Part shown: one piece after another, positions 10,552 to 62,639 of the stretch
How positions within the stretch are numbered: the stretch's first letter is position 1
How the letters are laid out: every line of letters starts with the position of its first letter
Assembly (NCBI GenBank): GCA_963555705.1
Contig: OY743190.1
Span: 8,531,501 to 8,595,500, forward strand
DNA length: 64,000 nucleotides
Direction: 5' to 3'
DNA from: Ligustrum vulgare
Taxonomy: Eukaryota > Streptophyta > Magnoliopsida > Lamiales > Oleaceae
The notes under the pieces: generated by a model
The model's input: only the letters and a program-made list of their open reading frames with translations
What the model was told of the DNA's origin: nothing
The model's database searches: none
Translations under genes and position numbers: made by a program

Positions 10552-10592
10552 TCACCCCCCCCCCCCCCCCTTCTCTCTCTCTCTCTCTCTCT
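10552..10592 (-). other. Expanded polypurine tract of the Copia element
   Basis: On the plus strand this is TCA, then 16 consecutive C (10555-10570), then TT and a long (CT)n run to about 10592. In element sense it reads (AG)n-AA-G16-TGA directly before the 3' LTR, where the plus-strand primer for reverse transcription is expected. The length is unusual; part of it may be later slippage. Confidence 0.7.
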
Positions 10593-13500
10593 CAAGCTGG
10601 TATTTGGTGCAAGTCAGCCAATCCAAGCTTGGAAATCAATGCATGAAACTGAGGAGCAGCCAAAGCCTTCGTAAAAATATTGGTGATCTGGTGAGAAGAA
10701 GGAATGAACTGAGGAGAGATGATGCCTTCTTTGAATTTATTTCGAACAATGTGGCAGTCAATTTCAAGGTGCTTAGTTCTCTCATGGAAAACTAGATTAG
10801 CACTGATATGCAAAGCTGATTTTTTATCACACCATAAAGGAATAGGTAGAACTGAAGGAATCGTCAAATCTTCAAGAATATAATTGATCCATCTTACTTC
10901 ACAGACAGTTGCTGCTAAACTGCGGTATTCCGCTTCTGCTGTAGACCTCGAGATAGTGGCCTGCTTCTTTGTTTTCCAAGATATCAAGGAGTTACCAAGG
11001 TAGACACAAAATCCTGTGAGAGACTTTCTAGTATCTAGACAAGATGTCCAATCTACATCTGAGTAGGCTGTCAATGAGAAACTCTGTTGAACAGGGAAGT
11101 ATAGACCAAGAGATGGACATCCTTTCAAGTATTTCAGTAGATAGATTGATGTGTCCCAATGTACTTGACAGGGGTTATTGACAAATTAACTTAGCTGTTG
11201 GATTCCATATGTAAGATCTGGCCTAATGAGGTTTAAATACAAAAGTCTTCCAATCAATCTTCGATATCTTTTTGGATTTGGAAATAAGGGACCTGAGTTC
11301 CGGGACAATTTCGTTCCTTTTGGGATTGGAATTATGACTGATTTAGCTCCTGTGAGTCCAACATCTTTAATGATATCAAGAACGTATTTTCTCTGGTTGA
11401 CATAAGTTTCCTTATCACTTCTTGCAATTTCAAGACCTAGGAAATACTTTGCAACACCTAAATCTTTAATTGTAAACTGCGAATGCAAATATTTCTTCAC
11501 AGAAACAATATCAGATTCATGCGTGCCGGTAATTAAGACATCATCCACATAAATTAACAGGAAGAGAACATGGCCAGAAGAATTTTTAATAAAGAGGAAA
11601 TGATCATGATGTGACTGATTAAAACCATACTATGTAAGCTTAAGACAAAGTTCATTATTCCATTGTCTTGAAGCTTGCTTCAATCTGTAAAGGCTCCTCT
11701 TTAATCTGCAAACTTCGCCTGGAAATGTTATGTTATGACCTGCTGGTGGCTGCATGTAGACCTCTTCATCAAGATATTCGTGTAAAAAGGCATTATTAAT
11801 GTCTAATTGGTGAAGAGGTCAGGATCTAGCTAATGCCACAACAATAAATATTCTCACTGTTACCCGTTTTGCAACGGGTGAAAAACAGTCAAAAAATCGA
11901 TCCCTTCCAACAGGTTATAACCTTTTGCAACTAACCTCGCTTTAAGCCTGTTAATACTTCCATAAGGGTTCAATTTAACTTTGTACAACCACTTACATCC
12001 TGTGACCTTTTTTCCATTAGGTAAAGTTGTAAGCTCCCATGTGTTTTTTTCTTCTAAGGCTTTAATCTCCCTATTCATAGAATCTACCCAATTTTGATCT
12101 TTACTTACTTGAAAATAAGAACTTGGTTCATGGATCTTTGATACATTAGCCAGATAAGCAACATATGCATGATTTAAATGTGGTGAAATGGTGTATGGAT
12201 AAGTAAGAGGTGTGTGAATTGATTTGGATTTTGTTTGTTTGATCAAAGTTTTGACATTAGTAGTGGGAAATATTGGATTTTCAGAAACATTGGTAATATA
12301 ATCTTCCATCCAGGCATGTTTGCTCTTTAGTCTAGTGCTTTGTCTAGGTGCAAGATCATCATTGTGCACACTATCAGAAGATTCAGGGAATGGAACCTGT
12401 AATAATGGTATGTTATCACAATCTATGGTGGAAGTATCCTGTGCATTATCTTTAACAGGTGGATTTGTGGTGTCATATTGGAGAGTCTCACTGTCATGGA
12501 TGTCTGGTGGGTTGAAGGATGAGTTTTCAGAAGGTGATGTAATGGGTAAAGGAGTATCAATGTTAGGCTCTTTTTGGTTTTTGAAAGGGAAGAAATTTTC
12601 ATAGAAAGTGATATCTCGTGAAACATGGATTTGTTTGCTTGTTATATCATAGGCTTTGTAAGCCTTTTGTCCAAGACTATAGCCTACAAATACACATTTA
12701 TTGGCTCTTGATTCAAATTTGTCTTTATGAGGCTTTGTGTTTGCAATATAACAAAGGCATCCAAATATTTTCAAGGATGAAAGGTCAGGTTTGGTTTTGT
12801 ACAGAAGTTCATAAGGGCTTTTCCAATTCAAAACTGAACTAGGGATTCTATTTATGATGTGTGTGGCCATTAGTATGGAATAAGACCAAAATTGTTTAGT
12901 TAAGCAAGCTTGAAACATAAGGGATCTGGCCATTTGTAATAAATGTCTATATTTTCTTTCAACAACTCTATTTTGTTGTGGAGTATAAATACATGATTTT
13001 TTATGTAGGATACCAAGTGACGGGAGAAGAGATTGACAGTCATTGCTTGTGAACTCACTTCCATTATCAGTTCTAATAGTTTTAACATTCTTCTCAAATT
13101 GATTTCTGGCCATTTTGAAGAAAGATTCCAAGGTCTCGATAGTTTGGGATTTGTGTACAAGCATGAAGCTCCATGTGGCTCTACTATAGTCATAAACAAT
13201 AGTGAACATAAACAGGGTTCCAGTTAGTGTGTGTTGTCTATAAGGGCCCCATATGTCAATGTGCAATAGGTCAAAAATGGCTTTTGTGTGAATTTTTTAG
13301 TGTTGTAAAGGATGTCTGGTTTGTTTGACTTTATGGCAGATGTCACAAGGTGCAAGATGTTTGATTGTTGCAGTGTTACAAATGGCTTTGAGGAAACTAA
13401 GATGTTGCAAACATTGATAGGAAGTATGTCCCAATTTATTGTGCCAATCAACAAGAGAAATGGAAGACACTTTATTGATATAAAACTTGTCATTACTGGA

Positions 13501-14052
13501 ATTCAAGATCTCAGTAGATAAATGATTGAGAATATTCACTTCCCTATTACATCTTTTCATTCTTCCCTCTAAGATGCTATAATCATCTAGTATGTATAAC
13601 TTCCCTTTCAATTTTCCAACTGCTATAGTGCTTTCATTCTTCAGGTCCTGCAACAAGTAGTAAGTGGGGTAGAAAGTGAATTTAATCTGTGTAGATTGGC
13701 AAAGTTTCGGTACTGATAGCAGATTGAATTTGAATGTAGGCACATGTAAGACATCAGTTAATTTGAGTTTTTGGTTTATATTGATGGTTCCAGTGTGATG
13801 AACAGATTTAGTAGAACCATTAGGTAAGAAAATGGATGTGGATTGTGACACTGGTTTCAGGTTAGTCAATTTTGATGAATCGATGCAAATATGATTACTC
13901 GCACCAATATCAATAATCCAAGTCCCATAGTTCAAATTATCAAGTGAAGTAAAAACCAAGCGATGTGGGTACATACCAGAATAATCCCTTAGATGTGCAA
14001 AGTTCACTTGATTCCCACTGTCATCATTCCTCTTTCCTTTGAGTAGTTTCAT
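10592..14052 (-). pseudogene. Copia pol (protease, integrase, RT, RNase H), broken
   Basis: Reading downward from 14052: the protease motif appears as WIIDIGASNHI, where the usual active site is D-S/T-G-A, so a key residue is changed to Ile. The GAG-pre-integrase block follows (WHNKLGHTS ... CDICHKVKQTRHP), then a stop at about 13296 just before the integrase core (HIDIWGPY, TDNGSEF at about 13060, and a PQQNRVVER stretch). RT begins around 12060 (WVDSMNREIKALEEKNTWEL) and breaks near 11870 with a frameshift after GIDFLTVFHP. The catalytic YVDDVLITG motif is at about 11520-11550, and RNase H with DVDWTSCLDTRKSLTGFCVY near 11040-11065. At least one nonsense and several frameshift lesions are present. 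Confidence 0.9.
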
Positions 14053-14056
14053 AAGC

Positions 14057-15201
14057 TCTTGTTGGACAATGTTAGTGATATTAGCATTAGATGTTCCCTT
14101 TTCAGAATTCCTACCATAGACACCATCCTCAAAGTCCAGTGGTGAATCATCTTATTTCACAACATTGTTCACTGCGTTTCTACCTCCAAACTCTTTTACC
14201 ATTTGCTCCTTTGGTATTTTGTACCAATCTGGATAGCCAATGAGTTTGAAGCATCCCTCCTTTAAATGTCCATTCATGTTGCAATAATCACAATACATCA
14301 GATTTTTTTCATAATTGTTGAACTTTTTTCCATTTCACCTGCCTCCAGTGTTGCTCATTCTGCCAGAATTAGATCTGCCTGCCCAATTTACTGATCCAGA
14401 TCCATTTCTCATTTGCATATCATTTCTCACACTATGTCCTTTAACCATCATAGCTGCATTATCAGTAGGCTCAGGAAATATGTCATGTACTTCCCTTTGT
14501 TTTTCCACTCTTAAGGCCATTGAATAAGCTCTATTCACAGAAGGCAGAGGATTCATGACCAACACTTAATTTCTAACATTATCATAGGTGTCATTTAAAC
14601 CCATTAAGAATTGCATGAGTTTGTTAAAAGAAGCTTAATCTGAGACTTCCTTGGCTGCTTCACATGTACAGATCGGTGTGGGCATCAGACATGAAATTTC
14701 ATCTCACAATTTCTTAAGTTTGGTATAGTATTTCTCTACAGTCAGTGATCCTTATGTTATACTACTAATTTCCCTCTGCAACCGGTATAGTAATGGGCCA
14801 TTGCATTCACCATACCTTTCTTCTAATTCAATCCACAAATCCCTAGCTGATGTTGTATAGATAAACGCCTCCACAATCTCCTTTGAAATCGAGTTCAAAA
14901 TCTAAGACCTAATTATACAATCTACTCTAACACATTGATCATATTTTGGAGAATTATCTGCTGGCTTTTCACATTTTCCATTAATAAATCCCAATTTCAA
15001 TTTTACCCCCAAAGCAATTTTAATGGTTCTATTCCAGTTGAGGTAGTTTTTACCTGTTAATGGTGAAGTTACTAAGAGCATTCCTGGGTAGTCCGAGCTT
15101 TGAAGATCCAATGGGTTTCCATTGGTGTATTCCTTGGTTGCAGCTTGTTGTACAACCGGTGGTGGATTTCAATGTGTTCCAATTTCACCATCTGTCACCA
15201 T
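14057..15201 (-). pseudogene. Copia gag, broken
   Basis: Read downward from an ATG at 15199-15201. The N-terminal half carries the Copia gag pattern (DYPGMLLVTSPLTGKNYLNW, then WNRTIKIALGVKLKLGF) near 15030-15110. A zinc knuckle CDYCNMNGHLKEGC (CX2CX4HX4C) lies near 14260-14300. An early TGA follows about ten codons after the ATG, and further stops occur near 14940, 14640 and 14150, so no full protein can be made. Confidence 0.8.
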
Positions 15202-18613: not shown

Positions 18614-19749
18614 ATGGCTGCCACTGCCAGTTCTACCACTGTTGTTAGGGCAACTCCATTCTTGGGCCAAACCAAGAATGCCAACCCTCTTAGAGATGTT
18701 GTCTCTATGGGAAATAGCAAATTCACCATGGTACTACCCCCGCCCTACATTTGGTATGGTCAGGTGATGATTTGTTTTAATGGTTTTGATTTTTTGGACA
18801 GGGTAATGAATTATGGTATGGGCCGGACCGCGTCAAGTACTTGGGGCCATTCTCAGCTCAAACTCCATCCTACTTGACCGGAGAATTCCCCGGTGATTAT
18901 GGTTGGGACACTGCTGGATTATCTGCTGATCCTGAGGCATTTGCGAAGAACAGGGCTCTGGAGGTACTCCAAGTGTTTAAACATCTTCTCTGTTTTGTAA
19001 ACCGTTTATAATCGGTTGTTTAAAAATTTTTTTTTTTTTTTTTAATAAATAAAGACGTATCTAAGTTTCGTTGGTCCATTTTTTAGTAAAAACTGGCGGA
19101 CGGAAATTTTTGATGACTTCCAAGAATTTTTTTTTTATCAAAATGAAGTTGTCATGTAACCGTTTATATACAAATTTTTTAGGCATTTAGAACTAGTTCT
19201 TGATCAAAAAGTGACAGGAAGAAGTAATTGAAATGCCAGGTTATTCATGGGAGATGGGCAATGCTTGGAGCTCTGGGATGCATCACCCCAGAAGTTCTTG
19301 AGAAATGGGTTAATGTGGACTTCAAAGAGCCAGTTTGGTTCAAGGCTGGAGCTCAAATCTTCTCTGAAGGTGGACTGGATTACTTGGGCAATCCCAATCT
19401 TGTACACGCACAGAGCATTTTGGCAGTTCTTGGATTCCAAGTTGTTCTCATGGGACTCGTCGAAGGATTCAGAATCAATGGTTTAGAAGGCGTCGGTGAG
19501 GGCAATGATCTTTACCCCGGTGGCCAATACTTTGATCCTCTTGGCCTTGCTGATGACCCTGTGACTTTCGCTGAGCTCAAGGTAAAGGAGATCAAGAATG
19601 GAAGGCTAGCCATGTTCTCCATGTTTGGATTCTTCGTTCAGGCTATTGTCACTGGAAAAGGCCCTCTGGAGAATCTGTTGGACCATCTTGATAACCCTGT
19701 TGCTAACAATGCCTGGGTTTATGCCACCAAGTTCGTGCCAGGATCATAA
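18614..19749 (+). CDS. LHCB3: LHCB3, chlorophyll a/b binding protein of LHCII, 3 exons
   Basis: Exons 18614-18730, 18802-18963 and 19240-19749 encode 262 aa. The protein is a thylakoid antenna subunit of LHCII trimers linked to photosystem II and acts in moderately bound trimers. After a Ser/Thr-rich plastid transit region (about residues 1-38), the mature part starts [20 protein letters not shown]. It lacks the phosphorylatable N-terminal segment of Lhcb1/2, the hallmark of Lhcb3. Helix B carries [14 protein letters not shown] (E93, R98), helix [21 protein letters not shown] (150-169), and helix [17 protein letters not shown] (E210, N213, R215), so the main chlorophyll ligands are present. 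It ends at FVPGS. The length matches the family (about 265 aa). It converges with the myosin gene 400 bp downstream. Confidence 0.97.
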
Positions 19750-20144: not shown

Positions 20145-23100
20145 TCAAAATGCTAAGATGTTTTGCTCTTCTTTACCCCACCGTATTAGTAGATTTTTCT
20201 CGGCTTCATCCTGTCGTAGCCTATGTACTCTTGCCTTGGCCTCCCTTAACCGGACCCTGTAATCCTTTTTCCACAACTGAAATCTGGATTTCAGAGACTG
20301 CAGTTCTTCCTCGGGATCCACGGCATGCCCCAACGAGACATCATCAATTGCTCTGGCCTCATCTTCAAAATTTATTTTCCTTCGCTCAAACTCCGTCACA
20401 AGGGAGTTTGCATGTAAACCACCACTAGTTAATCGACCTGCTCCAAAATCAATACCATTGTAAGCAAATTTGATAGGGTTGCTACCACAAGGAGTCTGAG
20501 AACAGCAAAGTGATGAGGAGTCATCAATCGTTGGAGGTTGACCTGAATTGTCATCAGCACTAAGACTCGTTTTGGCTGCAGCTAAACTCATCTGTAATAT
20601 CAGTAATATCAGAATAAGTAACTTAGGGCCAGATGCTTATAATTTCTTGAAGTAACTTGGAGCATAATAAACTCACTTGCAAAGATGCTGTATGCTTCTG
20701 CCACACTTCCTCCAAATTTTTCATCTTAGATTCATATTGAGACCACCGTGCCTCAAATTGTCTTATTTGCAATCTTAGAGCTGCATTTTCCTTATCCTTC
20801 TCCCCAAGAATTGCTTCTGCCATCAACACCTTCCTTTGAAGTTCTTCCACCATAGAAGGTAACATTTCAGGTGGCATATCCTGCTCAGCCACTACGAATT
20901 TATCTTACTTAAAAATCCACAAAATCAAGGTCGTAGACAGAATAAGGGGATAAATGTGCGTGGGTTGGCGAAGGAAGGACAGTGGAAACACATGCATTTC
21001 GACTCAAGTCCACTACTTTATTTTTGTGCACAAAACATAAATGCAAGGTTTTTATTTCTTTTGGAGCAGAAGCATAGTGCAGACAACATATCCATGCATG
21101 AAACATAAATTTACATGTAAGAGGAAAAAACAGTTTAATTCACTCATAACCACATTTTTCATGTTCAGTGAACTTGAAACAGAGATGCAAGTTTCTTCAT
21201 CATTTTAGGCATAAGTACAGATGATATCTGCATACATCTATGACACGTAACTGGAATTAGTGATATAACAGCAGATGGTACTGAATCTTATAGAAGCAAT
21301 AAAACAGAAATTAGTACCTTAATGTCAGAAATCTTTCTGTTTGGTTTCGCTTTAGCAACATTGGACCTTTTCGAATTCCTAAGGTAAACAAATTGCCGTA
21401 GCGCCAACCACCGACGAATTGCTGTGGAAGAGAATGTATGCGATTAGGACAATATACTCAATTAGAACAACAAAGTGATTAATGAACACAAAATCTTTCT
21501 TTACCCGATTGAATTTTCACAACTGATATTCGCTGCTTAACTGGCATTCCATAAGAAACATGCTCATTCAACTTGACCAAAGCGCAATGCTTCCTTCTGG
21601 AAATTTCACCACGAATAACTGCAAGAGTATGAAACATCAACACTTTGAGAGAAGTAACATATTATTGGAAAACTTATTAGAAGAAGCAAAATATTAGGAT
21701 TCAGAGAAAATATCATGCTACTAAAAAATATTGGTTCTCCAGAGATTCAATTAATATTCTGAAGCTTCACTTAATCGTGTAAAAGGGAAAAGATCTAATG
21801 ACATTCTGAGGAGACTCGCCAATCTGTCACTGAACACAACAGGCATCGCTAATTGTAGTAATAATGATGTAAAAGATTTACTGCTTCCAAAATTATCTTA
21901 GATGGGTAATTGATTAATTCAAAAATGACTAGTAATTCATGTCAGCCTCACATGATTGCAATTTTATTACTCCTCCTTTGAGCTCGTGAAAGTATCGACG
22001 AGCATGATGACCACGAAAGCATTTCTGAACCGCAAGAGTACCTCGCAAAACTTGGTTTCTAGCATCTTCAAACGCACCAATCTGTAATTCAAGAAACAGA
22101 TAATTAGACAAACTAATCCACAGTATCTTTTAGCCTCTGATAAATAATCAACAGGAAATCTTGTTTGAGTATCAAGTTGTTAATGAACTCCCAGAACTTT
22201 TTCCCCCTAAACTATATATAACTTGATAAGAATCTAAGTTTAATGCAAGGGAAAGAAATAGTTAATGGAAATTTTCCAATCTTCTTCACTGCATCAGGGC
22301 TATGGGATTCGAACCCAATAAGTCAGAATGAAAACAGAGTACCCAATTGCTTCCTAGACTAAACATTGTGCAGATTGCTCTCATCCTTCGCTTTTAACCT
22401 TCATCTTTAATTTCACTATGTCCAGAACTGATTGAAAAAGCATATGATTATCCTAAACACTGGAGGAGCTCTGAGCCATTTTCATGATGTATTTATCTTT
22501 TCCATTGTTTGCCTGGATTGCGGATAGATCTCCAGAGAATCATTTTAGAGTATTTCAAATTAGTTAGATGGGGGGTAAAAAGGGTAATAGAGCTATTGAA
22601 GATGTTAATAAATGTGGGAGTGTGTAGGATTCATTTTCATTCATGTTTTTAGTGAAATCAGTTAGGAGAGAACAAAGCCTCTCGAAAGCTTTGTAAAACC
22701 TTTCCATTCTAAATATATACAATTTCCAGTTTTATAATATAATACAATACATTTTCTATCTTCTTTACATTCCTCTAGCTCCTATATTCATTCTTGTCTG
22801 TTGGAATCAAGCAGGAGAAATCCAGCTGGTAACAGCCACTCCAATCACAGAAACTTGGCTGCAATTCACGGCAAGACCAACAGGATCTTATCAATTGCAC
22901 AAAGTGACTGGAAACACAAATGTGTATCCATAATAATAGCTTAAAAGCTGTAGCCTAGTTATATGCAACAGAACACATACTATGAAGTGTCAGACATCTA
23001 CACAAACTTGCCTATTGTGTCGGAAGTACAGTCATAAAACCAACTTGGTACAACAGCAAGTGCATCAAACTGCTGCAGAATGGCTTAGCCTGTGTTCGGA

Positions 23101-24389
23101 TCAACAGGTTTTTTTGGTTTATAAACCAAATTTTAAACAACACATTTTCTCTCTCTATTTTTTAACCATTCATCTACCTCGAAAAATGTGAAATAATCTG
23201 ATTTTTAATCTGCTGTAGCCTCCGAACAGATCATATACTTAAAGCAATACTCTGGCTTTCCACCTATCAGAAAAGGCTCAATTTCAAGTATGTTGATGTG
23301 AACTTAACTGTCTTTCCAGATTTTTAACAATTAACAAAGTAGACCATGTTAGAAGAAAATCTAGAACTAGCTGTAAGTATAATGTCTGCTACATTACTAT
23401 TCAAGCATCTAAACCATAGTTGGTAAGGGAAAACTCGTAGGATCTGGTTTTGGCCCAAATGCTTAGGTGATGGCCGCTTATGCTATATGTTTGAATGTTT
23501 AATTACTCCAACGAACACATGTTGCAAATATTTATTATTATATACACTATATGTGCTATTTGGCTCTTGTAACGCTTATATAACTTAGAGGATACATGCA
23601 AACATATACTCATAATATTATATTATGGTAAGCATTGGTGGTAACACATAAAATATAGAACATAAATAAAGGGGAAAAAAGGAGAAACAAATTATAAAGT
23701 TTCTGATGAAAATAATAAGCTCCAAGCATTTCCATTACATTTCAAGAAGCCTTCCATTTTTTGTTGAATGCAAAAGCCTAGTCCAATTATCCAACAATAT
23801 AATCATCCCATTTGGAGTGTGTTTTATGAATCTACTATGTAAACCCTAAGTAAACTCACATCTTTGTGATCAACTACCGGAGAATAATTATAAAACTCAG
23901 CAATGAAGTTTCACAGTTGTAAACATCCAATTTTGGAAGGAAAAAGGATAATATGCAAGCACATTGTTGTACCTTCTCAACAAAATAACCAATGTTGTCA
24001 TCCCACTCGGACTCCCTAAACCTTGGGTGCAAATCCAAGGGCGAGCTGGTGAGTTTAGCATGGTCCTTATCCACTGACCATGGCTCACCTACCTTCTCCC
24101 ATTCCTCTCCCCTTTTAGCTACAAAACTATTCCCTCCTAAACCTTTTGTATCTTCTTTTTTTACATTAAAATTTGATGAGCTCTTCGAGGACTCAGATTC
24201 CCCAGTGTTGATGCTTCTGGGCAGCGGCCTCTTAGACGAGGGCAACCGGGCCCTGGATGCTGGCTTCGGCCGTGCTGGCAGCGATGGCGGCCTGTCCTTC
24301 GCCCTCTCATTCTCGTACTTTCTCCGGAGAGAATCCAGCATTTCCTCCATGGAGCTCCGAGCTATTGAATTCGGCGACATAGAAAACAT
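20145..24389 (-). CDS. Motor-less class VIII myosin (ATM2-like), 6 exons in frame
   Basis: Minus-strand exons: 24389-23973, 22081-21952, 21618-21505, 21421-21318, 20880-20677, 20591-20145. All introns are GT-AG and all phases match, giving 471 aa. Exon 1 is the typical myosin VIII N-terminus (MFSMSPNSIARSSMEEML, then a Pro/Arg/Ser-rich stretch, ending SEWDDNIGYFVEK). The next exon begins IGAFEDARNQVLRGTLAVQK, which in intact class VIII myosins lies just after the motor. Thus the roughly 700-residue ATPase/actin-binding head is absent. Three IQ motifs remain (about residues 155-173, 177-195, 215-233) for calmodulin-like light chains, then a coiled coil (about 256-323) and the class VIII tail (DPEEELQSLKSRFQLWKKDY). 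Start chosen at the ATG aligned with ATM2; an upstream in-frame codon at 24408-24410 is TTG. It may be a headless tail protein or a decaying gene whose remaining exons happen to be intact. Confidence 0.85.
22082..23972. other. 1.9-kb intron occupying the place of the lost myosin motor
   Basis: No motor-domain coding is visible on either strand. The minus strand has a good Pol III B box (GGTTCGAATCC, complement of 22305-22315), suggesting a SINE. An LTR-like segment may lie near 22600-22800. A MITE-like element with inverted ends (gcctgtgttcggatcaacag / ctgctgtagcctccgaacag) lies at about 23093-23233. The 5' splice site GTACAACAAT and 3' site TTGAATTACAG are both canonical. Confidence 0.5.
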
Positions 24390-26689: not shown

Positions 26690-27575
26690 TAAATGTCATC
26701 AAAATATTGACTAATTGTGACTTTGTGCGACTTGTGACGAGTAAGAGATGTGACCAATTATTAGGTAAATGTGACCAAAATATTGATTAATTGCGATCAA
26801 TTGTAACTTTGTGTGACCATTAGATGATGATGTGATGTGACCTACAGTTGTGTTAAATATGACTTTGTGTGATCGAACTGTGACTTTTTGTGAGCGAATT
26901 GTAACCTCCCGCGATCGAACTTTGACTTTATATGACCTAATTGTGAACTTGTGTGATCAAATTGTAATCTCGTATGATCGAACTGTGACCTTATGTAATC
27001 GAACTGTGACTTTATGTGACCTAACTGTGACCTCGTGTGATCGAACTGTGACTTTATGTAAGCGAATTGTAACCTCGTGTGACTGGACTGCAACCTTGTG
27101 TGACCAAATTGTGACATTGTGTGACCAACTGTGACTTTGTGTGACCAATTGTGACCTAACTGTGACTTTGTGTGATAGAACTGTGACCTTGTGTGATCAA
27201 CTGTGAATTTTTGTGACCAGCTGTGACTTGGTGTGACTATTGGACGAGGACGTGATGTGACCTACAATTGTGTCAAATATGACTATGTGTGACCGAACTG
27301 TGACTTTGTAAGAACGAAGTATGACTTTATGTGATCGACATGTGACCTCGTGTGATCTAACCGTGACCTCGTTTGACCTAATTGTGACCTAACTGTGACC
27401 TCGTTTGACCAAACTGCGACTTTGTGTGACCGAACTTTGACCTTGTGTGACCAACTGTGACTTTGGAGGGGTGAATTTTACAACTAAATTTGTAATTGTG
27501 ACTCTGTGTGACCTTGTGTGACATAACTGCGATCTCGTGTCAACTTACGTGACTGACTGTGATTTTAGGGGTGGG
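26690..27575. repeat. 21-bp minisatellite array
   Basis: Degenerate tandem copies of a 21-bp unit, consensus about TGTGACTTTGTGTGACCGAAC, cover roughly 0.9 kb. Since 21 is a multiple of 3, all frames stay open over long stretches and give 7-residue peptide repeats such as TVTLCDR and SQFDHTR; these are not genes. A longer-order repeat of about 420 bp is superimposed: the block 'gatgatgtgatgtgacctacagttgtgttaaatatgact' near 26823 recurs near 27248. Confidence 0.9.
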
Positions 27576-39800: not shown

Positions 39801-42320
39801 AAGTTCGGTAAAATTCCTGTCTCCATATGTTTATGAGGATTTACCACCTAAGTTCGGTAAAATTCCTGTCGCGTATGTTTATGAGGATTTCGATCCTATC
39901 TTATGTTATGATAGAAATGATCCCTATGAATTTCATGAATTATTTTTTGGTATACTTACTGTTATTATGATTTTACTACATAAGAATTCTTGCCACCTAA
40001 GTTCGGTAAAATTCTTATATTTATGAGGATTTCGATCTTATCCTATGTTACTGTGATTTTACTGTTATTATGATTTTACTTCATAAGAATTCTTGCCACC
40101 TAAGTTCGGTAAAGTTCTTGTATGTTTATGAGGATTTAAATCATATCTTATGTTATGTTTTCAAAAGAAATTATGCTTGGCATAATTAAAATGTTTTTAT
40201 AAGTATATGGTTTTCAAAGAGCTGTTTTCAAAGAGCTATTTTCACTATGATTTGCAAAATATGTCCCGTGCTGAAATGCACAATATGAGTTTTATCAAGA
40301 GCAGTTTTATAAAGAAGCTCTATCAATGCCCGTTTTATAAAGAGCCGGGATTTGTGTGTTTAATCATCTTATAAATTAAATTAATTTGCGATGAGTCTAC
40401 TGAGTATTTCCCCCATGAAATACTCACCCTACTTTTTCACAGTTTTGCAGATTTCGGAGACGGTGGCGAGCGATGAATGATGGTGGCAATAATCGTTAAA
40501 CAGTTGAAAGTTTGACGATAATGATTTCCGTATTTTCCAAACAATCGAATAATTTAGAGAAGTTCATTTATTTGAGAAATTATGACATTGGCAATTTCTT
40601 TACAATATTAATGGTTCGATTTACTATTTCAAATGGTTTCATAAATGTTATCAATTTTATCGGCCATTACAGTTTATTTAATGTTGCCAAAAATGAATTT
40701 CAATTATTTCTTCCGCAAAAAATATTATTCGAAAAATTTAGACAGAAAATGACGTAGTGAACCGGGTATACGGAACTCGGGGCGCTACAGTGTTTGATAG
40801 ATGATCCAATGTTGGTGTGTGCTGAAGTATCATAGTCTGTTTCGGATTATCAAACTCTGATACTTTGTCATTAAAAGTTGATTTGCACATAAACTTTCCA
40901 ACGAGTTTTTTCCACTATACAATAACATGAATAATTATTTGTTTTGACATTGTTAGAGTGTTGTGAAGTATCATGTTTGTAGATAAGGTGTGTGATGATA
41001 TGTTTGATAGATGATCTAATGTTGGTGCATGCTGAAGTATCAAACACTGATACTTTATCCTTAAAAGTTGATTTGCATATAAACTTTCAATTGAGTTTTT
41101 GCCACAAGATAATAACATGGAGAATTATTTTTTATGACATTGTTAGAGTGTTGTGAAGTATCATGTTTGTAGATAGAGTGTTTGATGATGTGTTTGATAG
41201 ATAATCCATTGTTGATGTGTGCTGAAGTATCACGGTATGTTCTGAGGTATCAAACACTGATACTTTATCCTTAAAGGTTGATTTGCATATAAACTTTCAA
41301 TTGAGTTTTTTCCACTATACAATAACATGAATAATTATTTGTTTTGGCACTGTTAGAGTGTTGTGAAGTATCATGTTTGTAGATAAGGTGTGTGATGATA
41401 TGTTTGATAGATGATCTAATGTTGGTGCATGCTGAAGTATCATACTCTGATACTTTGTCATTAAAAGTTGACTTGCATATAAACATAAACTTTCAATCGA
41501 GTTTTTTCCACAAAGACAGTGACATGGACAATTATTTATTATGACAATGTTAGAGTGTTGTGAGATCATGTTTATAGATAGGGTGTTTGATGATGTGTTT
41601 GAGGGATTATCCAATATTGATATGTGCTGAAGTATCATAGTCTGTTCCGAAGTATCGCACTCTGATACTTTGTCGTTAAAAGTTGAATTGCACATAAACT
41701 TTCAAACGAGTTTTTGTCACAATACAATAACATGGAGAATTATTTGTTTTGCAACTGTTAGAGTATTGTGAAGTATCATGTTTGTAAATAAGGTATTTGA
41801 TGATATGTTTGAGAGATGATCCAATATTGGTGTGTGCTAAAGTATCATAGTCTGGTCCGAAGTATCAAACTCTGATACTTTGTCATTAAAAGTTGATTTT
41901 CACGTAAACTTTTGATCGAGTTTTTGCCACAAAACAATGACATGGAGAATTATTTGTTGTAGCACTATTAAGGTGTTTGATGATATGTTTGAGAGATGAT
42001 CCAATATTGGTGTGTGCTGAAGTATTATAGTCTGGTCCGAAGTATCAAACTCTGATACTTTGTCATTAAAAGTTGATTTTCACATAAACTTTTGATCGAG
42101 TTTTTTCCACGAGACAATGTCATGGATAATTATTTGTCATTGCACTATTAGTGTGTTCTCAAGTATAATGTTAGTAGATAAGGTGTTTGATGATATGTTT
42201 GATAGATGATCCAATGTTGGTGCGTGCTGAAGTATCATAATCTGTTCCGAAGTATCAAACTCTGATACTTTGTCATTAAAAGTTGATTTTCACGTAAACT
42301 TTGAGTTATTTCCACAAGAA
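36830..42320. repeat. Satellite of ~180-215-bp units upstream of mudrA, split by a solo LTR
   Basis: About eleven units, e.g. with starts near 36842, 37055, 37263, then after the LTR 40981, 41172, 41383, 41577, 41787, 41968 and 42178. Each has 'gataaggtgtttgatgatatgtttgagagatgatccaatgttgg' followed by 'gaagtatcat...gaagtatcaaactctgatactttgtcattaaaagttgattt'. Two more copies lie downstream of mudrA at 45250-45690. Minus-strand frames through the units (for example 41315-41695) are repeat artefacts. Confidence 0.9.
37287..40789. mobile_element. Solo LTR A, 3.5 kb, TSD GTGTT
   Basis: Ends TGTAGCGACCC...GGGGCGCTACA, that is TG...CA with short inverted ends. It is flanked by GTGTT on both sides (37282-37286, 40790-40794). 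It interrupts one satellite unit, which reads on across the insertion. No gag or pol is present. It shares blocks with solo LTR B ('gacgaagcgtacggagaat', 'cccgctcaactttgcactcgtc', 'gatttcggaga.ggtggc'). It has its own tandem repeat around 39785-40130 with 'accacctaagttcggtaaaattc'. His/Pro/Ser-rich open frames at 37408-38890 come from CA-rich composition. The long size and family likeness suggest a Ty3-type element. Confidence 0.9.
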
Positions 42321-42436
42321 AAAAAACAAGTATCATACTCTGTTCGAAAGCATCAAACTATGATACTTTATTATTAAATCTTAGATGTTACATGCTTTTT
42401 GCTTGTATTTTCTAACACATACTATTTTATGAAGGA

Positions 42437-45033
42437 ATGGACATAACTCTTGTCATCTTACATCATGGAGGTAAATGGGTGCAAGACAAAGAGTACATTG
42501 ATTATGAAGTAGTTGGAATACCAGTTCCACATGGATGCACATATAGTAGACTTCAAAATATTATATTCTCTGCATTGGACTTGGACACAACAAAGGTAGC
42601 TCTTACAATGCAATATGAACTCAAAAAAGGAATGCCATTGGTGAAATTTGTGAATAATAACTCAGTTTCATTCTACTTGGAGCTGAAGAAAATCAACCAG
42701 GACATTGGAAGCTTTCCCTTGATAATTGATACCACCCCAGTTTCAGAAAGTATCAAATATGATACTTCTCAAAATGTCCAACTTGAGCACTTTGATAATG
42801 TTCAACATGATGACAGGATACAATTACAACCAGTTGAAAGTGAGAACTCAATCACGAAATCTGTAAAATCGATCGAAGAAATTGCTTCTGAAGTGTATGA
42901 GTGCATAGAACAGGTTAGACAGGTGGACAATGAAGTGGATGATAAAGTACAATCTATTATAGTATCAGAAACAAATGTTGCCGCATTTACAAAAAATCAG
43001 GTATTCCAAGATAAACAAGTATTGAAGGTGTCTATTGCAAAGTATGCCATGCGTAACATGTTCAATTCAAGGTGAAAAAATCTGACTCGAAGGAATATGT
43101 GCTGAAATGCATTGACAACAACCGTCAGTGGACTTTCAGGGCTTCAAAGGTGGGGAAAACAAGTATGTTTATGATACGTTACATAAAGAATGATCACACA
43201 TGTACATTAGATGCCATAATGGAAGATCATCGACAAGCTTCAAGTTCAACAGTAGCCCTCTTCATTAAACACAAATACACAGCCACAAAGACAATCTATA
43301 CTCCAAAAGACATTATGAATGACATGCTAAATGACTATGGAGTTTCAATGAGCTATGACAAATCTTGGAGAGCTCGAGAACAAGCATATGAATTGTTGAC
43401 AGGTGATCCTCGAGAATCATATCAAAGGCTGCCAACATACTTCCATATGCTAGAATTAACAAATCCCGGATCCAGTACAAGAATTGAGATAGATTCAAGC
43501 AACAGATTCAAATATTTGTTCATGGCATTGGGAGCATCTATAGAGGGGTGGAAGTTTTGTAGGCCCGTGATAGTAGTTGATGGAACCCATCTAAAGGGAC
43601 CTTGTGGTGGTACGTTATTTACAGCATGCACTCAAGATGCTAATAACAACATTTTTATACTTGGCTTCGGGATAGGTAACTCAGAAAATAATGATTCGTG
43701 GGAATGGTTCATGAATATGATTAAGGAAACATATGGTGAGAGAGAAGGTTTGTGTATTGTTTCAGATAGGCATCCAAGCATCGAAGTAGCAGTAGAGAAA
43801 ATATATCCAAATGTGTTGCATGGTGCATGTTCAGTCCATTTGTTGAAGAATTTGAAATCAACTTATGGAAAGAATGCAAAGAATGTTACACAACCATTCA
43901 ATGAAGCTGTTAGGGCTTACACAAAGGAGGAATTTGAATATCAAATGTCTCAGATGGATAACATAAATGGAGAAATTCGTGGATACTTGGTAAGTATAAC
44001 ATTTGATATTTAGTATCATAACATGATACCTTTTGAAAAATAGATAATAAGATTAATATTTTCTTATCATGTCCTTTTGCAGGAGAAAGCTGATTATGAA
44101 AAGTGGTCAAGGGCATTTATGACAACTAATAAATATTCCATAATGATATCAAACATCGTCGAGTCAGTGAATGCAGTAGTAAAGGCAGCGAAGAAGAAAC
44201 CTGTAGAAGCTTTGATGGAATGCTTAAGATATGTGTTGCAGAATTGGTTTTCCAAGAATCGAGACAATGCAATGGCTACATTTACAGTATTGGGTGCTAC
44301 ACAAGAAAAAATATTGAGGGAAAGGACAATCGAGTCAACAAAAATGAAGGTATTTGCAACTGTTTAAATGCTCTTGCATCATGCACATAACATTCCTTGT
44401 TTTCTATAATGTAATGGTCATAGCATATTGGTTGATTAATAACATGATGTTGCGGGCTGTACATAAAAAGAGATAGAGTTGCAATGCATATTCCATTTGT
44501 TTCAAAAGTACCATAATATGATACTTTTTCTGAAAAGGTATCATTATGAATTCAATTAATTCCTTGCATTTTTTTCACCACAGACAATACCTTCAACTCC
44601 ATTCATATATGAAGTTAAAAGCACCAGTAGATCAAATTTGGTGAATATACAAGAGAGGACATGCACTTGCCACAAATTTCAAGTTGATCAAATATTATGT
44701 GCTCATGCATTAGCGGTTATTCGTACAAAACACTTCAATGCCTATGACTATTGTTCTAAATACTATACAAAGTCGTCGTATGTTGACACATACAAAGGTA
44801 CTATTTTTCCACTTGGTGATCGTAGTGACTAGACCATACCAATTGATGTCTTATCTAGAGAGGTGTTACCACCTTTACCAACAAAGAAAACTGGGAGGCC
44901 TAAAGAGAAACAAATTCCATCAAAAGGCGAGCACAAAGTCACGATCAAATGTGGAAGGTGCCAAAACTATGGGCATGATCGAAAAACATGCAACAACCCA
45001 ACACCCTTGAAGAAGATGAAGGGACAAGATTGA
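42437..45033 (+). pseudogene. MULE transposase (mudrA type), frameshifted
   Basis: Exons 42437-43989, 44083-44349 and 44584-45033 with GT-AG introns. The N-terminal PB1-like/variable region (MDITLVILHHGGKWVQDKEY) leads to the FAR1/MuDR region, then the MULE DDE core with VVDGTHLKGPCGG and CIVSDRHPSIEVA carrying the first two catalytic Asp. A SWIM zinc finger CTCHKFQVDQILCAHAL follows in exon 3, and a zinc knuckle CGRCQNYGHDRKTC near the end. Two lesions: a one-base loss at about 43070 (reading ...MFNSR-stop, with the frame resuming at VKKSDSKEYVLKC), and a TAG at 44830-44832 where the family usually has Trp, placed before the zinc knuckle. The transposase would bind element ends and catalyse excision; this copy should not make a full protein. 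Confidence 0.9.
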
Positions 45034-45733
45034 AATCACCAGAAAGTTACAATATTTGATACTTTATAGTTAAATAATAATTTGAATCACTTCCAAAGGG
45101 ATGCTAATTCTTATTATTTGTTGGTTAATTAGTTCTGAAAATGTGCTCAATAATGTGAAGTAGTTGAACTTCATCATTTCTATCAGGAACTTCTTATCAC
45201 GTTGAATTTACTTACTATGGACTAGAATACAAATTTTTATTCGACAGTCTAATAGGTGCTTTTTTGATTTGCACATAAACTTTCAATTGAGTTTTTACCA
45301 CAAGATAATGACATGGACAATTATTTGTTATGGCACTGTTAGTGTGTTTGTGAAGTATCATGTTTGTAAATAGGGTGTTCGATGATGCGTTTGAGAGATA
45401 ATCCAATGTTGATGTGTGCTGAAGTATCATAGTCTTTTTCGAAGTATCACAATCTGATACTTTGACATTAAAAGTTGATTTGCACATAAACTTTCAAATG
45501 AGTTTTTGCCACTATACAATAACATGGATAATTATTTGTTTTGGTACTGTTAGAGTGTTGTGATAAGGTATTTGATGATATGTTTGAAAGATAATTCAAT
45601 GTTGGTGTGTACTGAAGTATCAGTCTCTTCCAAAGTATCAAACTCTGATACTTTGTCATTAAAAGTTGATTTGCACATAAATTTTCGATTGAGTAATTGC
45701 CACAACATTACTTTGTTTTCTATAATGTAATGA

Positions 45734-45866
45734 TCACACTTCAATGCCTATGATTATTGTTCTAAATACCAAAGTCGTCGTATGTTGACACATACAAAGT
45801 TACTATTTTTCCACTTGATGATCATAGTGATTGAAACGTACCAATTGATGTCTTATATAGAGAAGT
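45734..45866 (+). repeat. Partial second copy of the mudrA 3' end
   Basis: 'cacttcaatgcctatgattattgttctaaatac...gtcgtcgtatgttgacacatacaaa.ttactatttttccacttg' repeats 44731-44862 with a few changes and a short deletion. It follows satellite copies at 45250-45690, so a segment running from mudrA into the satellite was duplicated. Cannot encode anything useful. Confidence 0.8.
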
Positions 45867-46198
45867 GTTTTTTTTAAGGTAGTTTACAAGATTGGAAATG
45901 ATATTTGTATCAAAATGTAACCTAGTATCAAACTTATCAATACTCAAAAGACAACACGAAAACTAAACCACAGGTTGAATCTAATTTTAAACATGTTAGC
46001 TTTGTCTTATATAGAGCATTGCCACCACGGTCTCTATGTAACATTGTATGATACTTGTAATAGAAGGCAAGGCTAATGTGCTACTCTACTCTTAACAAAA
46101 ATCTAATTTCTAAGTACTCAAAAGCTAAAACTCAAGAGCTATCACAAAAATCCAAAATACGCCTTGAGTCAATACAATCATATGCCTCTTCAACTTGA

Positions 46199-49100
46199 TC
46201 ATTCATCATCAGTCATGCATTGTTCTTCTTCTTTCCACTTTGCATAGCTGAATAGTTGAGTAGCAAGGGCAACACGAAACTTGGATGAATCAAAACATTC
46301 ATGCATCTCATTCATCTTATCGTGAACTAGGAACTGGGCATATCCAATCACAAAAACACCACAATCCACGCTACTGCAAGAAAAACAATAAAATATTTCA
46401 AAAAGGTATCATTATTGATACTCCTAATGAAAATTGAGAAATTTAAACATATTCACACACAAAGAAAAAAAGAGAAATAACAAAAATAAATTTTAAGAAC
46501 CAATCTAAAAAGAAACTAACCCGCTTTTCTGTTGAGGAATGTTGTGTACAATGTTCATTAACAATGGATCAAGAATATCACAACCACGTACGCTGGGATC
46601 AAGATAGTCATTCGGCTTCCCATCCCAATATCCAGAATTTGCTAATAGAAAAGGAATTATGTGAGCAAAAGGACGAACAGAGGCAATTACTTTCTCGTCA
46701 TCAAAAACTTTGGCATATGAGTTATAAATATCCAAACATCTTCGCTTCATATCAAAATGAAGAAGCATCCAGTGATTTCTTGACTTTGCCATGATCGGCA
46801 AGAGCACATGATCAACATCAATCCAAGACATGTTGCACCTCATTGACTTCCCAATCACATATTCTAAAAGAGATGATTGATCAGATATTACAGCAAAATC
46901 AACCAAAAATTTATCAAAAATGCCCACTATCTTGCTTTGAAAATTACAATCAGTTGTTGTCCATGACTTTTCTGTCTTATTGCTGAACCTAATCATCTTT
47001 CTCAAATAGAACAAGCAAACATCTAAATGCTGCAGAATAATACCACAAAAAAGGTTAAAAACAAAAAAATTACAATACAAATGAAAGTAAGAAAAATTAA
47101 TGATGAAAACATAAAACACAAATATAACTTACAGTGTCTTCAAGTTGACCGTCTTTTGAATATAAATAGTACCACCGGATTTTCTTGGTTACGGTCAAAA
47201 TTCCAAAGTCATGTGAAGGATGAATTTCGAGTCTTGGCCTCCCAAATTTGAAAACCCTATAACATTAAAATAGGTATCATGATCTCAAATTTAAAAACAA
47301 ATAACTATAACAAAAAGTATCATAGTATCATACTTTACATAATATTAATAACTAAAGCAATCAAAAAACTTGCAAGATATTTAACTCTAGGACAACTATG
47401 ACCAAAAGTATCATAGTATGGAACTTTACATGAAATCAATAACAATATCAGAAAACTTACATTTTTTTATCTATTAGGCAATTAAGACCAAAAGTATCAT
47501 AGTATGTTACTTTTCAAAAATATTAATAACTAATGCAATCTGTAGCGACCGAGAATTTTTACGCAATGTAATAATTATTTCAAAGTTTCGAAAAACGTGC
47601 CGCTGCGATCTCACCCATTTTTACGTTAACGTCGCGACGCGTTCGTCTAGCCAAATCGAGAAATATCAGTCCATTCGATTTTAAATCAATTTCGAATTTC
47701 AAAAATTATATTATTTTAATTATTTATTTAAATTATTCTTTTCAAACCGTTTTAAATTTTAAATTACGTCAAGCTCATTTTATCAGATTCATTTCCGACC
47801 TAGTTGATTCTCGCGTACGATTTTCCTCAATTTTCATGTATTACTTTTCAAACTTTCCATCAATCACATCCATCCCATACTTCCACCCTATACTTCCACC
47901 CACTCCATTATACATCACCAACTCCTCCAAACTTCAACCCATACCCCCACCAACTTCATAATTCATCCTCACACTCCCTATACATCCTCCCTCAACCCAA
48001 CCACCAATGCAACCATCACCCACTGCCCCTTCACGCAGCCCTTACCCTGCGGCCAAGACCAACCATTGCAGCAACTCATCGCCCCACCAGTCCACTGCCA
48101 AGCCGCCACCTCCACCTCCACCCAAGCACCGTCACCACCCCAGGTTCGTGTACTCCCACCGCAAGCAGTCACCATCACCTTGACCAAACAACAGCTTCAC
48201 CACTCCAAACCGTCACCAAGCCACCCCCAGCTCACCTCCGTCTCCACGCCCAAACCAAGAACCACCATTCATCGACCACAACCTACTGCAGTGCTACCAC
48301 AACCGGCCAAGACCAACCCCCTGTACAACCCGTCACCACCACCACCACCACTTTCGTCCACTGCCCAGCCACAGCCCACTCACCTCATTCACCTCCATCA
48401 TCAACAACACCAACGCAGCCACCACCCATTTCCACCTTAACCACCGTTCGAAACATCCACAATCCCCCCGCGACACCACCACACACACCCATCATAATCA
48501 CCGCCCAATCCCAACCAAAATCAAACCAAAAACCCAAGAATCAAATAAACCTAGAAACTTACCTCTACCGTCGACCTATTCGCCAGAAAATCGCGATTTT
48601 GAGCCTAGTTCCAGCCTCGGTTACACCTTGGTTTCGCACTCAAAATAACTCGCACTCAATCCCTCAAATTTGAACCCCTCCTTGGCCGCCCCTTGCCGCC
48701 ACCCTGCGGCAGCGTTCCGCCGGCCAATTGCCGGCTGTGGCTCCGGGTAGTGACGATAGGCTCACCCTACCCGCTGCTGCTTTCTCTCTCTCGGTTGCGA
48801 GAGAGAGATATGTATATAATTATATATTTTAAATTTTTTGAAAATTTCAGTCTAGTCCCCCTCTTTTTAAAAGTGTTTAATTCAGCCCTTATAGTTTTAA
48901 AATCAATTATTTCAAGCCCTCTAGTTTAATATTCGTTTTGAGCTTCAACCCAACTTTTGAAAGTATTCATTTTAGTCCATCAACTTTCAAAGTATTCATT
49001 TTAGTCCCTCAACTTTCAAATTATTCATTTTAGTCCCTCAACTTTCAAAATCATCAATTTCAGTGCCCAAATGGTAATTTATCATTTTAACTATAAATTT

Positions 49101-52100
49101 TAAAAGAATAATTCGACTTAATCTTCTAATTGGCTAGACGAAGCGTACGGAGAATTAAAGAATTGAAGTCGTTTCCCGCTCAACTTTGCACTCGTCAAGT
49201 TTAAGGTAGACTCGTCCCTATTAATTGATTTAAATTATGATTGCATTTGAATGTGTATGTTATGTGACTTATGTGAAAGTCATTTTTATGAAAAGAGAAA
49301 AGAATGTATTTCTTCGGAAATATTATGTTGAGATGAGAATATATTTCTTATGAAATATTTATGTTGTTATGCTTGTCATAACTTATGTGCTTTCATGCAT
49401 GAGAAAAGAAAGAAGAGAATATCTTGCAAGATAAATGATGATGTTATGCATAACTTATGTGCCTTATGTGCACGAGAAAAAAGAGCAACCCACACCCGAT
49501 GATTTTAAAGGGCCTATGATTTTTCAAAGAAAAACCATGTGCTTTAATGCACAAGAAGAGCAACCCACACCCTATGATTTCTAAAGAGCTTATGAATTTT
49601 CAAAAGAAGCCATGTGCTTTAATGCACGAGAAGAGCAACCAACACCCTATGATTTCTAAAGAGCCTGCATTTATGTGTTCAATTATATTGTAGATTAATT
49701 AATTGGCGATGAGTCTACTGGGTATTTCTATGAAATGCTCATGTCTATTTTCAACAACATTTGCAGATTTCGGAGATGGTGGCAAGTGATTGATGATTGT
49801 GGCAATAGACGTTAAATGATTGAAAATCTTACTTTAATGATTTCCGTATTTCCAAACATTGGATAATTTTGAGAATTTCAGTTATTTGAGAAATTATGAC
49901 ATTTTCAATTTCTTTACAATATTAATGGCTCGATTTATTATTTCGAATTGTTTCATAAATGTTTTCAATTTTATCGACCATTACAGTTTATTTAATGTTG
50001 CCAAAAATGAATCTCAGATATTTCTTCCGCTAAAATGTTATTTTAAAGTTTAGACTAGAAGATGACGTGGTGAACCGGGTATTTAGAACTCGGGGCGCTA
50101 CACAATCAGAGTACCAATAATATGAAACTTACAAATTCTTATCTTTAAAACCTTCTTTGTACCATGCTAGAAATTTAGCAAGAGCATCATCATCAGGAAG
50201 TGATAATATTTCGCCCTTGAAAGCATAGGAACCCTTGACAACTTTGGTAGGTGCAGATGTGGAGTCATGTGCAATAAATTTGCTTCTTGACTGAGTCAAA
50301 GGACTGTTATCCTCCACATTGACGGGTTCATTCCCTTTAAAAAGAAAATAAAAGCTAATTAATAGTTTTTTGCATAATGTATAATTTGAAACAATAAATT
50401 TAGAAAATTTACCTCCCAGACATCCTTGACAACTTTAGTTGGAGTTAAATAAGAATCAGTGATTTTGGAATTTTCATATTTATTTTCATCTCTTAACTCA
50501 GGTTGTGAATCTTCTAGTAGTTTAAAAGAAGGCATGTCATCACTCATTGACTCTGATCCTTTATTTTCATCCTCTGTCAAACCCTTAAGTCCCACTATGT
50601 CGCAGCCATCATTTTCATTCAACAGTTTATCCTCTTTGATTGGAATTTCATCACTCACAATCTTCGAATCTCCAACATTCATTTGAATTTCATCACTTAC
50701 AATCTTCATAACTCCCACATTCTCACTACTGTAACTTTCATTGAATGTTGCATCCTCTTTACTGACAACTCCTTTAGGTAAATCATTCTTATTCCTCGCA
50801 TCATTCTTACTAACCAAGTCATCAATAAACTTTGATAGCATCCCACGAAAATCCTCCCTTAAACTGTCCATTTGATAAAGAAAGTCATTCTTCAAATCAA
50901 TTTGTTGAGCAGATATCTGTTCCTGTTTCAACTTGATATCTAAAAGATGTTCCTCAATTTCTTTAGAAGGAACACTTCCCTACAATGTCAAAAGAAAAAT
51001 CTATATTAAATATGGAAAAATATTGCATAAATCGTTAAGGAGAAGAACAAATGTAATATACCTCTTTTTCTTTCCCTTCACATGATAATATAGCATGATG
51101 TGATGAAGGTGGTGGACATGGAGGTATGTCTACTGGATATTTGGTAAATAATCCAAATGCATACGGCCGTTGTTTTTCTTCATCTGTTGGTTCAATAATG
51201 TTGACTTCAACCTGAAAAAAGGAAATATAAACAAATGTTGTATTATCGACATATAAGAGATTAAATAAAATCAATTAAGAAAAAATACTTACAATGGGAC
51301 CATCAAAAACTGCATTCTCAAATTGAGAAGACATCATACACTTCTCAGATTTCCAGTTTAGAATTCGGGGGTACAATGTATTTACTCTCTTGCATACATG
51401 TCCATCTAAATCCGGGATACTTTCATATGCCCATATCTGGAAAGCTAATGAAAACCCATTCAGCCTATACGAATATGATGCGACTTTTGATTTAGGATCA
51501 ATTGTAGGTTTCCTATCACGAAGAGCGCCTCTAAGACCCTTTAATGTTTTCTTAAAAACATATTTTCCCCATGGAAATTTTCCCCCCAAATCAGCATCAA
51601 CTATATTGAAAACAGCTTTCTCTACCAATTTCTCATAGCTTTCCCTATACAAAAATGAAGTCAGTAGATGCACAATTGCAATCTTAACAGCATCTTCATC
51701 ATTTACATTCACAGGCAGATGCTTGAAGACATGTTCAACTTCTTTTGATGTCACTCTTTTGTAATTCGAGAAATATTCCTCTTTCAGCCTACACTCATTT
51801 GTGTTGAAGTCAGACCAATCATCATCACCAATTACTTTAAGACCAGTCACTAAACAAAATTCCTCATCTGAAAATCGAACAAACTTTTCACCAATTTTGA
51901 ACCACTTCTGATTATTTTTTGCCTCTTTAACAAAAACCTCTCTCAAGAGCATACAATGGATCAGTTGGAGTTGTAGGCACATTTCATTAAGTTCAAGATA
52001 TGCACCAAAGCAAGTCCTCTTGAACATTTGCAACTGAGAATGTGACAGCTTGCCCTTGATGTTCTCCATAGCATAAGCTTCAAATTTGACAATAGATTTC

Positions 52101-62607: not shown

Positions 62608-62639
62608 GTAGGTGGATATGTTGGGCGATGTTGCAATTT

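Follow-up and report, generated by a model that had tools for sequence, protein, structure and literature searches.

A survey of 67 plant genomes recorded only two headless myosin types, both belonging to class XI, and the same account defines class VIII myosins by a MyTH8 extension encoded in a single exon, an SH3-like domain and motor, three to four IQ motifs, a coiled-coil tail and a WW motif (PMC3850447; this and the other papers cited by accession are represented here by parts of their text). Elsewhere, ‘headless’ denotes tails expressed experimentally (PMC4199776, PMC3203191). Class VIII myosin has been placed at plasmodesmata, endosomes and the plasma membrane, with the suggestion that it anchors more than it moves (PMC2275265), and no natural headless class VIII myosin was found described in the open-access literature, subscription papers lying outside the scope of the search. 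Here, we describe a class VIII myosin gene without a motor domain in a stretch of 64,000 nucleotides from Ligustrum vulgare (contig OY743190.1, positions 8,531,501 to 8,595,500), referred to below as the window and numbered from its first letter. Taken as a whole, the evidence is probably best explained by a duplicated gene that lost its motor by deletion and was retained by selection as a headless anchor or brake.

The gene occupies the minus strand between 24389 and 20145 and comprises six exons, with GT/AG at every intron and matching phases. Its predicted coding sequence of 1416 bp specifies 471 amino acids and a stop, with no internal stops, beginning with the MyTH8 exon and continuing through three IQ motifs and a predicted coiled coil to the tail, the motor being absent. 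This agrees with the original prediction of an intact six-exon frame, whose junction from 23973 to 22081 is exact to the base; its description of the product as tail-only is inexact, since the N-terminal MyTH8 exon is retained. That extension lies in a single exon alignable to exon 1 of full-length proteins (exon 1, 24389-23973, 417 bp), contains an RSSMEEML helix and a DRPPSLPARP...SRARLPS motif, and ends in NIGYFVEK at phase 0. Exon 2 (22081-21952), carrying IQ1, opens with IGAFEDARN, likewise at phase 0, giving the joint NIGYFVEK/IGAFEDARN. It is followed by exon 3 (21618-21505, IQ2), exon 4 (21421-21318, IQ3, reading IRRWLALR), exon 5 (20880-20677), which matches the coil exon of the full-length copy described below, and exon 6 (20591-20145), which holds the tail, the C-terminus and the stop and in which the WW motif is reduced to RW. 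Exons 2 to 4 each match Pfam PF00612, the protein having three such IQ stretches (E 6.3e-10), and neither a motor domain nor the DIL domain of class XI tails was found in it by Pfam at E <= 1. When five full-length class VIII proteins were compared with the whole 64 kb by tblastn (E <= 10), the MyTH8, IQ, coil and tail exons were matched significantly, and motor residues were matched, in other parts of the window, only at chance level. The SH3-like and motor domains expected of class VIII are missing from the gene, apart from a decayed relic of 85 bp. No relative of the predicted protein was found in the PDB by sequence at E 0.001.

In place of the motor exons stands intron 1 (23972-22082, minus strand, 1891 bp, GT...AG), which contains this relic: a non-coding, decayed remnant of the last motor exon (AILRQFDILPEMYQVGYTKLYFRAGQ in the paralogue) together with its donor, about 85 bp long (23084-23000, minus strand). 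Aligned with the paralogue on contig C4 (see below), where it corresponds to the terminal part of that exon and the donor, it is identical at 68 of 90 columns (76%), with 17 mismatches and three frame-breaking indels; its Smith-Waterman score is 66, the highest among 200 Markov-resampled introns being 42, and blastn returns it at E 2.4e-9. Additionally, the last 81 bases of the intron (22162-22082) can be aligned with the final motor intron of that paralogue (score 42, null maximum 37 in 100), and the 888 bases 5' of the relic gave nothing above chance when compared with it (score 36, null maximum 37 of 100). Adjoining the relic on its 5' side is an unstranded dispersed repeat (about 23230-23084), whose extent was set against four other copies and which by appearance resembles a miniature inverted-repeat transposable element; it has at least 54 matches in the genome, a figure in which the repeat of the window itself and secondary fragments of certain copies are counted and which derives from 40 scored candidates out of 1114. 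The repeat ends where the relic begins, thereby marking one edge of the lost motor region. A motor relic inside intron 1 indicates that the locus was once full-length, and the deletion apparently ran into the last motor exon, the remnant of which is skipped by the predicted splice. The earlier claim of a loss of all motor exons thus stands insofar as no motor is found in the 64 kb, and gives way insofar as a decayed piece of the last motor exon remains.

The genome was searched as 1.385 Gb in 51 contigs, among which the window is C23:8531501-8595500. The listing for the myosin head family PF00063 contains 100 matches, a lower bound with 65 of 178 candidates scored, and includes none on C23. 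The original prediction had proposed a search for a full-length paralogue, and a motor-bearing type A class VIII copy was found at C4:68613324-68624360. Its exon matches, from which it is judged with the motor exons unspliced, span residues 1-1171 of the 1177-aa Fraxinus full-length myosin with only 371-373 and 404 uncovered, and the stops in three matched stretches fall where the match runs through an intron. In this respect the window gene matches a headless plant myosin in the broad sense of a duplicate that has lost its motor and kept the rest, being without a motor itself in a genome that carries a motor-bearing paralogue. Exon 1 of the C4 copy ends in FIKK at the same position as that of the window gene and also in phase 0 (exon 1 identity 53%), and the joint at its IQ exon, AATTACAG followed by ATTGGTGC (beginning IGALED), is in phase 0 with the same start as exon 2 of the window gene. 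Because the introns after the MyTH8 exon and before IQ1 are both in phase 0, removing everything between them keeps the frame.

The surroundings of the two copies correspond as well. An exon on the plus strand of the window (19228-19749; Pfam PF00504, E 2.1e-37) belongs to a chlorophyll a/b binding protein gene that we take to be LHCB3, and a copy 95% identical over 173 residues lies beside the C4 paralogue in the same arrangement. The silent-site distance (dS) between the two myosin genes is 0.74-0.79 and that between the LHCB3 exons is 0.75, the latter pair having a ratio of amino-acid-changing to silent distance (dN/dS) of 0.05; the similar dS of the two pairs indicates that the block was duplicated together. 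Duplication of the tail alone is ruled out, since the locus retains its first exon, a remnant of the motor and LHCB3 as its neighbour. Two further pieces of class VIII genes were seen in the genome. A type A fragment at C6:20174143 (part of IQ2, IQ3 and the coil) differs from the C4 copy at 3 positions out of 204 and 2 out of 104, or 5 of 308 exon bases in total, a near-identity that excludes it as an older duplicate and marks a recent partial duplication, and decayed tail exons with an internal stop at C3:21804823-21805850 look by eye like the relic of another class VIII type.

Over the non-motor coding parts, the window gene and the C4 copy are separated by a dS of 0.79 and a dN of 0.29, giving a pairwise dN/dS of 0.36, and the MyTH8 part alone gives 0.18. 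Polarised with 11 full-length outgroup proteins, 118 of the 192 amino-acid differences fall on the headless branch and 60 on the paralogue branch, 14 being ambiguous. With the NG86 method and parsimony, and with all ambiguous differences charged to the headless branch, dN/dS on that branch is about 0.51 (bootstrap 0.38-0.66, with 0 of 2000 replicates at or above 1), a value that also covers time before the motor was lost and to that extent tells less in favour of retention. Two observations speak to the time after that loss. The frame is kept over all 1416 bp: seven indel events occur in the protein alignment to the C4 copy, with exon lengths differing by multiples of three, in contrast to the relic with its frame-breaking indels. 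Furthermore, neutral simulation to the 80.7% identity observed with a headless protein of Abeliophyllum (described below) produced 5.9 stops on average and left 3 of 1000 runs stop-free, although this comparison is favoured by ascertainment, the gene having been found, and the protein annotated, for being open. The six exons have been under purifying selection, averaged since the duplication, which argues that their product is used; the neutral decay that the original prediction had allowed for is not borne out.

A young pseudogene or dying duplicate, in which the motor has been lost and the remaining exons are decaying and open by luck, is an unlikely alternative, and several observations lend it weight at the expense of the retention that we favour. 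The paralogue branch has a dN/dS of 0.22, so the window gene evolves faster than its full-length copy, and two motifs are eroded: IQ3 has lost the G found in the full-length IRGWLARR, as it also has in Abeliophyllum, and the first W of the C-terminal WW motif is lost, whereas the Abeliophyllum protein (P0001) has WW. The mildness of substitutions between the window and Abeliophyllum proteins (mean BLOSUM62 -0.30, compared with a neutral -0.44 +/- 0.17) gives no support for constraint. Among the 43 matches of the first protein search, which admitted proteins of 0.55-1.75 times the query length, Abeliophyllum is the only genus with a close headless type A protein and none is named for Fraxinus or Forsythia, database rows carrying the name of one cluster representative and those designated lgn having no names. 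Full-length class VIII proteins of both genera are present in the same database, as seen among the best 120 of 3731 matches, and retention of the Oleaceae headless type A may be patchy or unannotated. Also weighing against retention, the window gene is known here from genomic DNA, with its splice predicted. Against a dying duplicate stand the bootstraps, none of which reaches a dN/dS of 1, and the distribution of frame-breaking indels, three in 90 columns of the relic and none in 1416 coding bases. An intact relative is also annotated outside this genome: Abeliophyllum, of the tribe Forsythieae, has a 483-aa headless protein among the same 43 matches that is 79% identical to the window protein and shares its joint.

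Headless relatives extend well beyond this pair. A third search, which used 17 aligned headless rows as its query, produced 133 hits, of which 120 were listed. When headless proteins were defined by at least 300 aa, a MyTH8-like N-terminus, an IQ-tail and less than 15 bits for the motor, 53 of the 271 proteins retrieved, plus the window protein, had a MyTH8-like N-terminus and IQ-tail without a motor, and 44 of these 54 rows have WW within their last 40 residues. The idea that a headless class VIII myosin was undescribed therefore holds for the open-access literature, while public protein databases contain many unrecognised examples, making the window gene one case of a wider class. The same genome carries a second intact headless class VIII gene, at C8:41203507-41201088, with six exons, 401 aa and a WW motif, whose intron between the MyTH8 and IQ exons, read from the DNA, is only 222 bp long. 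A single exon at C3:36190370 matches this gene and contains a stop. In monocots, the headless proteins Dioscorea P0166, P0171 and P0175 and Typha P0016 show IQ-tail matches in at least two stretches, as if the coiled-coil block had been duplicated.

The relationships of these proteins argue for more than one loss of the motor. A quick tree was built from 48 chosen motor-bearing rows and 53 headless ones, of which 51 came from the 53 found in the database (P0031 and P0033 being omitted) and the other two were the 280-aa P0246 and the window protein. On it, 35 headless rows form one side of a branch supported at 99 by the SH-like approximate likelihood ratio test (SH-aLRT), to the exclusion of all 48 motor-bearing rows. 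The named members belong to Cornales, Ericales, lamiids and campanulids, an assignment checked for one species in each. In a more careful tree of 47 rows, 17 rows of this asterid clade group with the C8 protein at 100/100. A single motor loss within the asterid lineage is likely from this topology, bearing in mind that full-length proteins of the lineage may fall outside the length range of the search or the matches listed. The window protein and its Abeliophyllum relative, by contrast, are nested elsewhere in class VIII, with 16 full-length type A rows of Lamiales (98/93) and, on the quick tree, within a set of 15 lamiid type A rows (support 97). Their closer placement, which bears on the date of the duplication, differs between beside non-Oleaceae Lamiales (98/93) and beside the Oleaceae full-length proteins (92/47 in the 47-row tree), and a clade with the latter is compatible with the data (p 0.06). 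A topology joining the pair to the asterid clade is worse by 109 log units (p 1.7e-61, a value weakened by the group having been named after the tree was seen), and one joining it to the headless type A rows of Apiaceae by 50 log units (p 1.1e-6); both were rejected, and with them a single origin for all headless class VIII proteins. The trees thus support a separate origin of the Oleaceae headless type A. Counting motor loss as irreversible, the quick tree has nine headless groups, although three of its four single-row groups are weak, Camellia P0007 being nearly identical to a full-length row and two others being without names. From this phylogeny we would defend at least four separate losses: in the asterid clade, in Oleaceae type A (the window gene), in Apiaceae type A and in monocots.

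It is rather improbable that most headless proteins from other species stem from faulty gene prediction, which would make the wider class illusory and leave the window gene isolated. Such errors are suggested by the near-identity of Camellia P0007 to its full-length counterpart and by Sesamum radiatum P0005, which is without part of its motor, and only the two headless genes of this genome have been read from DNA. Scattered errors would not, however, yield the motor-free clade of 35 rows, and the C8 gene has its short intron at the very position of the motor; additionally, several lgn rows have reading frames some 1.3-1.5 kb long on contigs measuring 1.4-2.1 kb and so appear to resemble spliced complementary DNA. 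We lean towards the view that motor-less class VIII myosins, as MyTH8-IQ-coil adaptors, are recurrent and partly ancient, with several origins by motor loss between the MyTH8 and IQ exons, one lineage kept across Cornales, Ericales, lamiids and campanulids, and two genes of separate origin in this genome.

A further possibility, which we judge distinctly improbable, is that the locus works mainly as RNA, as has been proposed for the short transcript of maize O1: there, a headless class XI transcript is described whose predicted protein was undetected by immunoblot (PMC3935558), a precedent that also counts against a retained protein here. An RNA role sits poorly with constraint on the amino acids, seen in a dN/dS below 1 and most strongly in the pairwise value of the MyTH8 part, and with a frame kept across six exons. 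An assembly artefact, with motor exons dropped or collapsed with another copy, is very unlikely and hardly credible even though the gene has been seen in one assembly, given that the window contains no N, that misassembly would not give a relic decayed to 76% identity, that the motor-bearing copy lies on a separate contig at a dS of about 0.75, which itself argues against the collapse envisaged in the original prediction, and that a second species annotates the same joint.

Returning to the retention of a headless protein, the steps leading to it can be outlined. A class VIII gene of type A, ATM2-like and with three IQ motifs, would have been duplicated within the LHCB3 block; a deletion running into the last motor exon would then have removed the motor exons, leaving MyTH8 to be joined to IQ1 in frame by the predicted splice. 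The predicted product has neither ATPase nor actin-binding head. Judging from its domain content and from an engineered IQ-tail, the three IQ helices would be expected to bind calmodulin and the coiled coil to dimerise, and the tail, by analogy with the engineered Arabidopsis IQ-tail, to reach the places where class VIII myosin is found, namely the plasma membrane, plasmodesmata or endosomes. There, it would serve as a calmodulin-regulated anchor that needs no motor, or would slow full-length myosin VIII by competing or pairing with it; such a role as anchor or brake seems the most likely, and competition with the full-length myosin may take place at plasmodesmata or endosomes. An AlphaFold2 model of the Abeliophyllum orthologue (24-row alignment) has a mean predicted local distance difference test score (pLDDT) of 64.6 and a predicted template modelling score of 0.26. 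It comprises a short N-terminal helix (13-27) followed by a low-confidence linker, a helix at 133-206 that runs through the MyTH8/IQ joint into the IQ motifs, a helix at 210-242, a coil at 259-336, with pLDDT of 87-95 per 10-residue block across residues 271-330, and C-terminal helices. The model fits a calmodulin-bound neck, a dimer and a tail.

Experiments with truncated proteins indicate what such a product could do. The IQ-tail of ATM1 fused to green fluorescent protein localised to plasmodesmata-rich pit fields, the plasma membrane and endosomes, and endosomes marked by ARA6 were arrested (PMC2275265, PMC8750215). Its authors expected a dominant negative effect (PMC2275265), and stable transgenic plants with the engineered tail had no significant phenotype (PMC2275265, PMC8750215). 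Within the membrane the tail of ATM1 is relatively stable, and collisions redirect microtubules (PMC8750215); headless tails are expected to inhibit by sequestering cargo and forming non-functional heterodimers (PMC4199776). A natural headless protein would act like these engineered tails unless changes of its own prevent it.

Motor-less forms that occur in nature and are maintained by selection would directly show a role that does not depend on the motor, and if the recurrent motor-less class is real, much of the work of class VIII myosin would need no motor. Headless plant myosins being already known as a kind, the window gene is of more interest as a case of a recurrent class than alone. 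With motor-bearing, recent headless and old headless copies in one genome, the question of anchor versus motor becomes testable by comparison. Attention is also drawn to the MyTH8 extension, which headless proteins of separate origin keep, its presence having been a condition of the count. In the open-access literature, the only relevant paper found under the name of this extension is the one that introduced it. Furthermore, names such as ‘Myosin-2’ or ‘myosin-3-like’ can hide motor-less proteins in databases.

Other features of the window include an array of about 30 copies of a 21-bp unit at 26860-27465, upstream of the headless gene, and an open frame at 62392-62838, which has no Pfam match at E 0.001 and which we presume to resemble a CcdA-type cytochrome c biogenesis protein; if so, it would extend the Arabidopsis order LHCB3-ATM2-CcdA. 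A broken copia-like retrotransposon lies at 10592-14151, with integrase and reverse transcriptase domains in the frame at 11860-13296. The region 42416-52141 contains a Mutator-like element (MULE) transposase (43057-44013), an Ulp1-type protease (46505-47128) and a DUF1985 domain (51275-52141), perhaps parts of a MULE carrying an Ulp1 gene, and is adjoined by tandem repeats of about 180-400 bp at 40790-42385.

Compared with known systems, the window gene is closest to the full-length, ATM2-like type A myosins (Fraxinus P0057, Forsythia P0062 and the C4 copy), with which it has the MyTH8 exon, three IQ motifs, predicted coil and tail in common, the C4 copy additionally matching it in splice sites, phases and the LHCB3 neighbour; where these have the SH3-like domain and motor, however, the window gene has intron 1 with its motor relic. 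The headless class XI proteins Myo11E2 of Arabidopsis and Myo11E4 of grasses are likewise motor-less plant duplicates that keep the tail, and Myo11E4, as the window gene, keeps three IQ motifs, whereas Myo11E2 keeps a coiled coil and DIL domain and has no IQ; neither is described, in the portion of that survey represented here, with the class VIII MyTH8 exon that the window gene has (PMC3850447). Engineered IQ-tail truncations of ATM1 and ATM2 resemble the window protein in joining a class VIII neck and tail without a motor (PMC2275265, PMC8750215), but they are laboratory constructs, whereas the window gene occurs naturally and has the MyTH8 exon in addition. The asterid headless clade (Nyssa P0163, Diospyros P0026, Nicotiana P0187 and the C8 gene) has the same MyTH8-like N-terminus joined to IQ motifs and coil, yet forms a separate branch and, unlike the window gene, often has an extra IQ-like stretch by eye.

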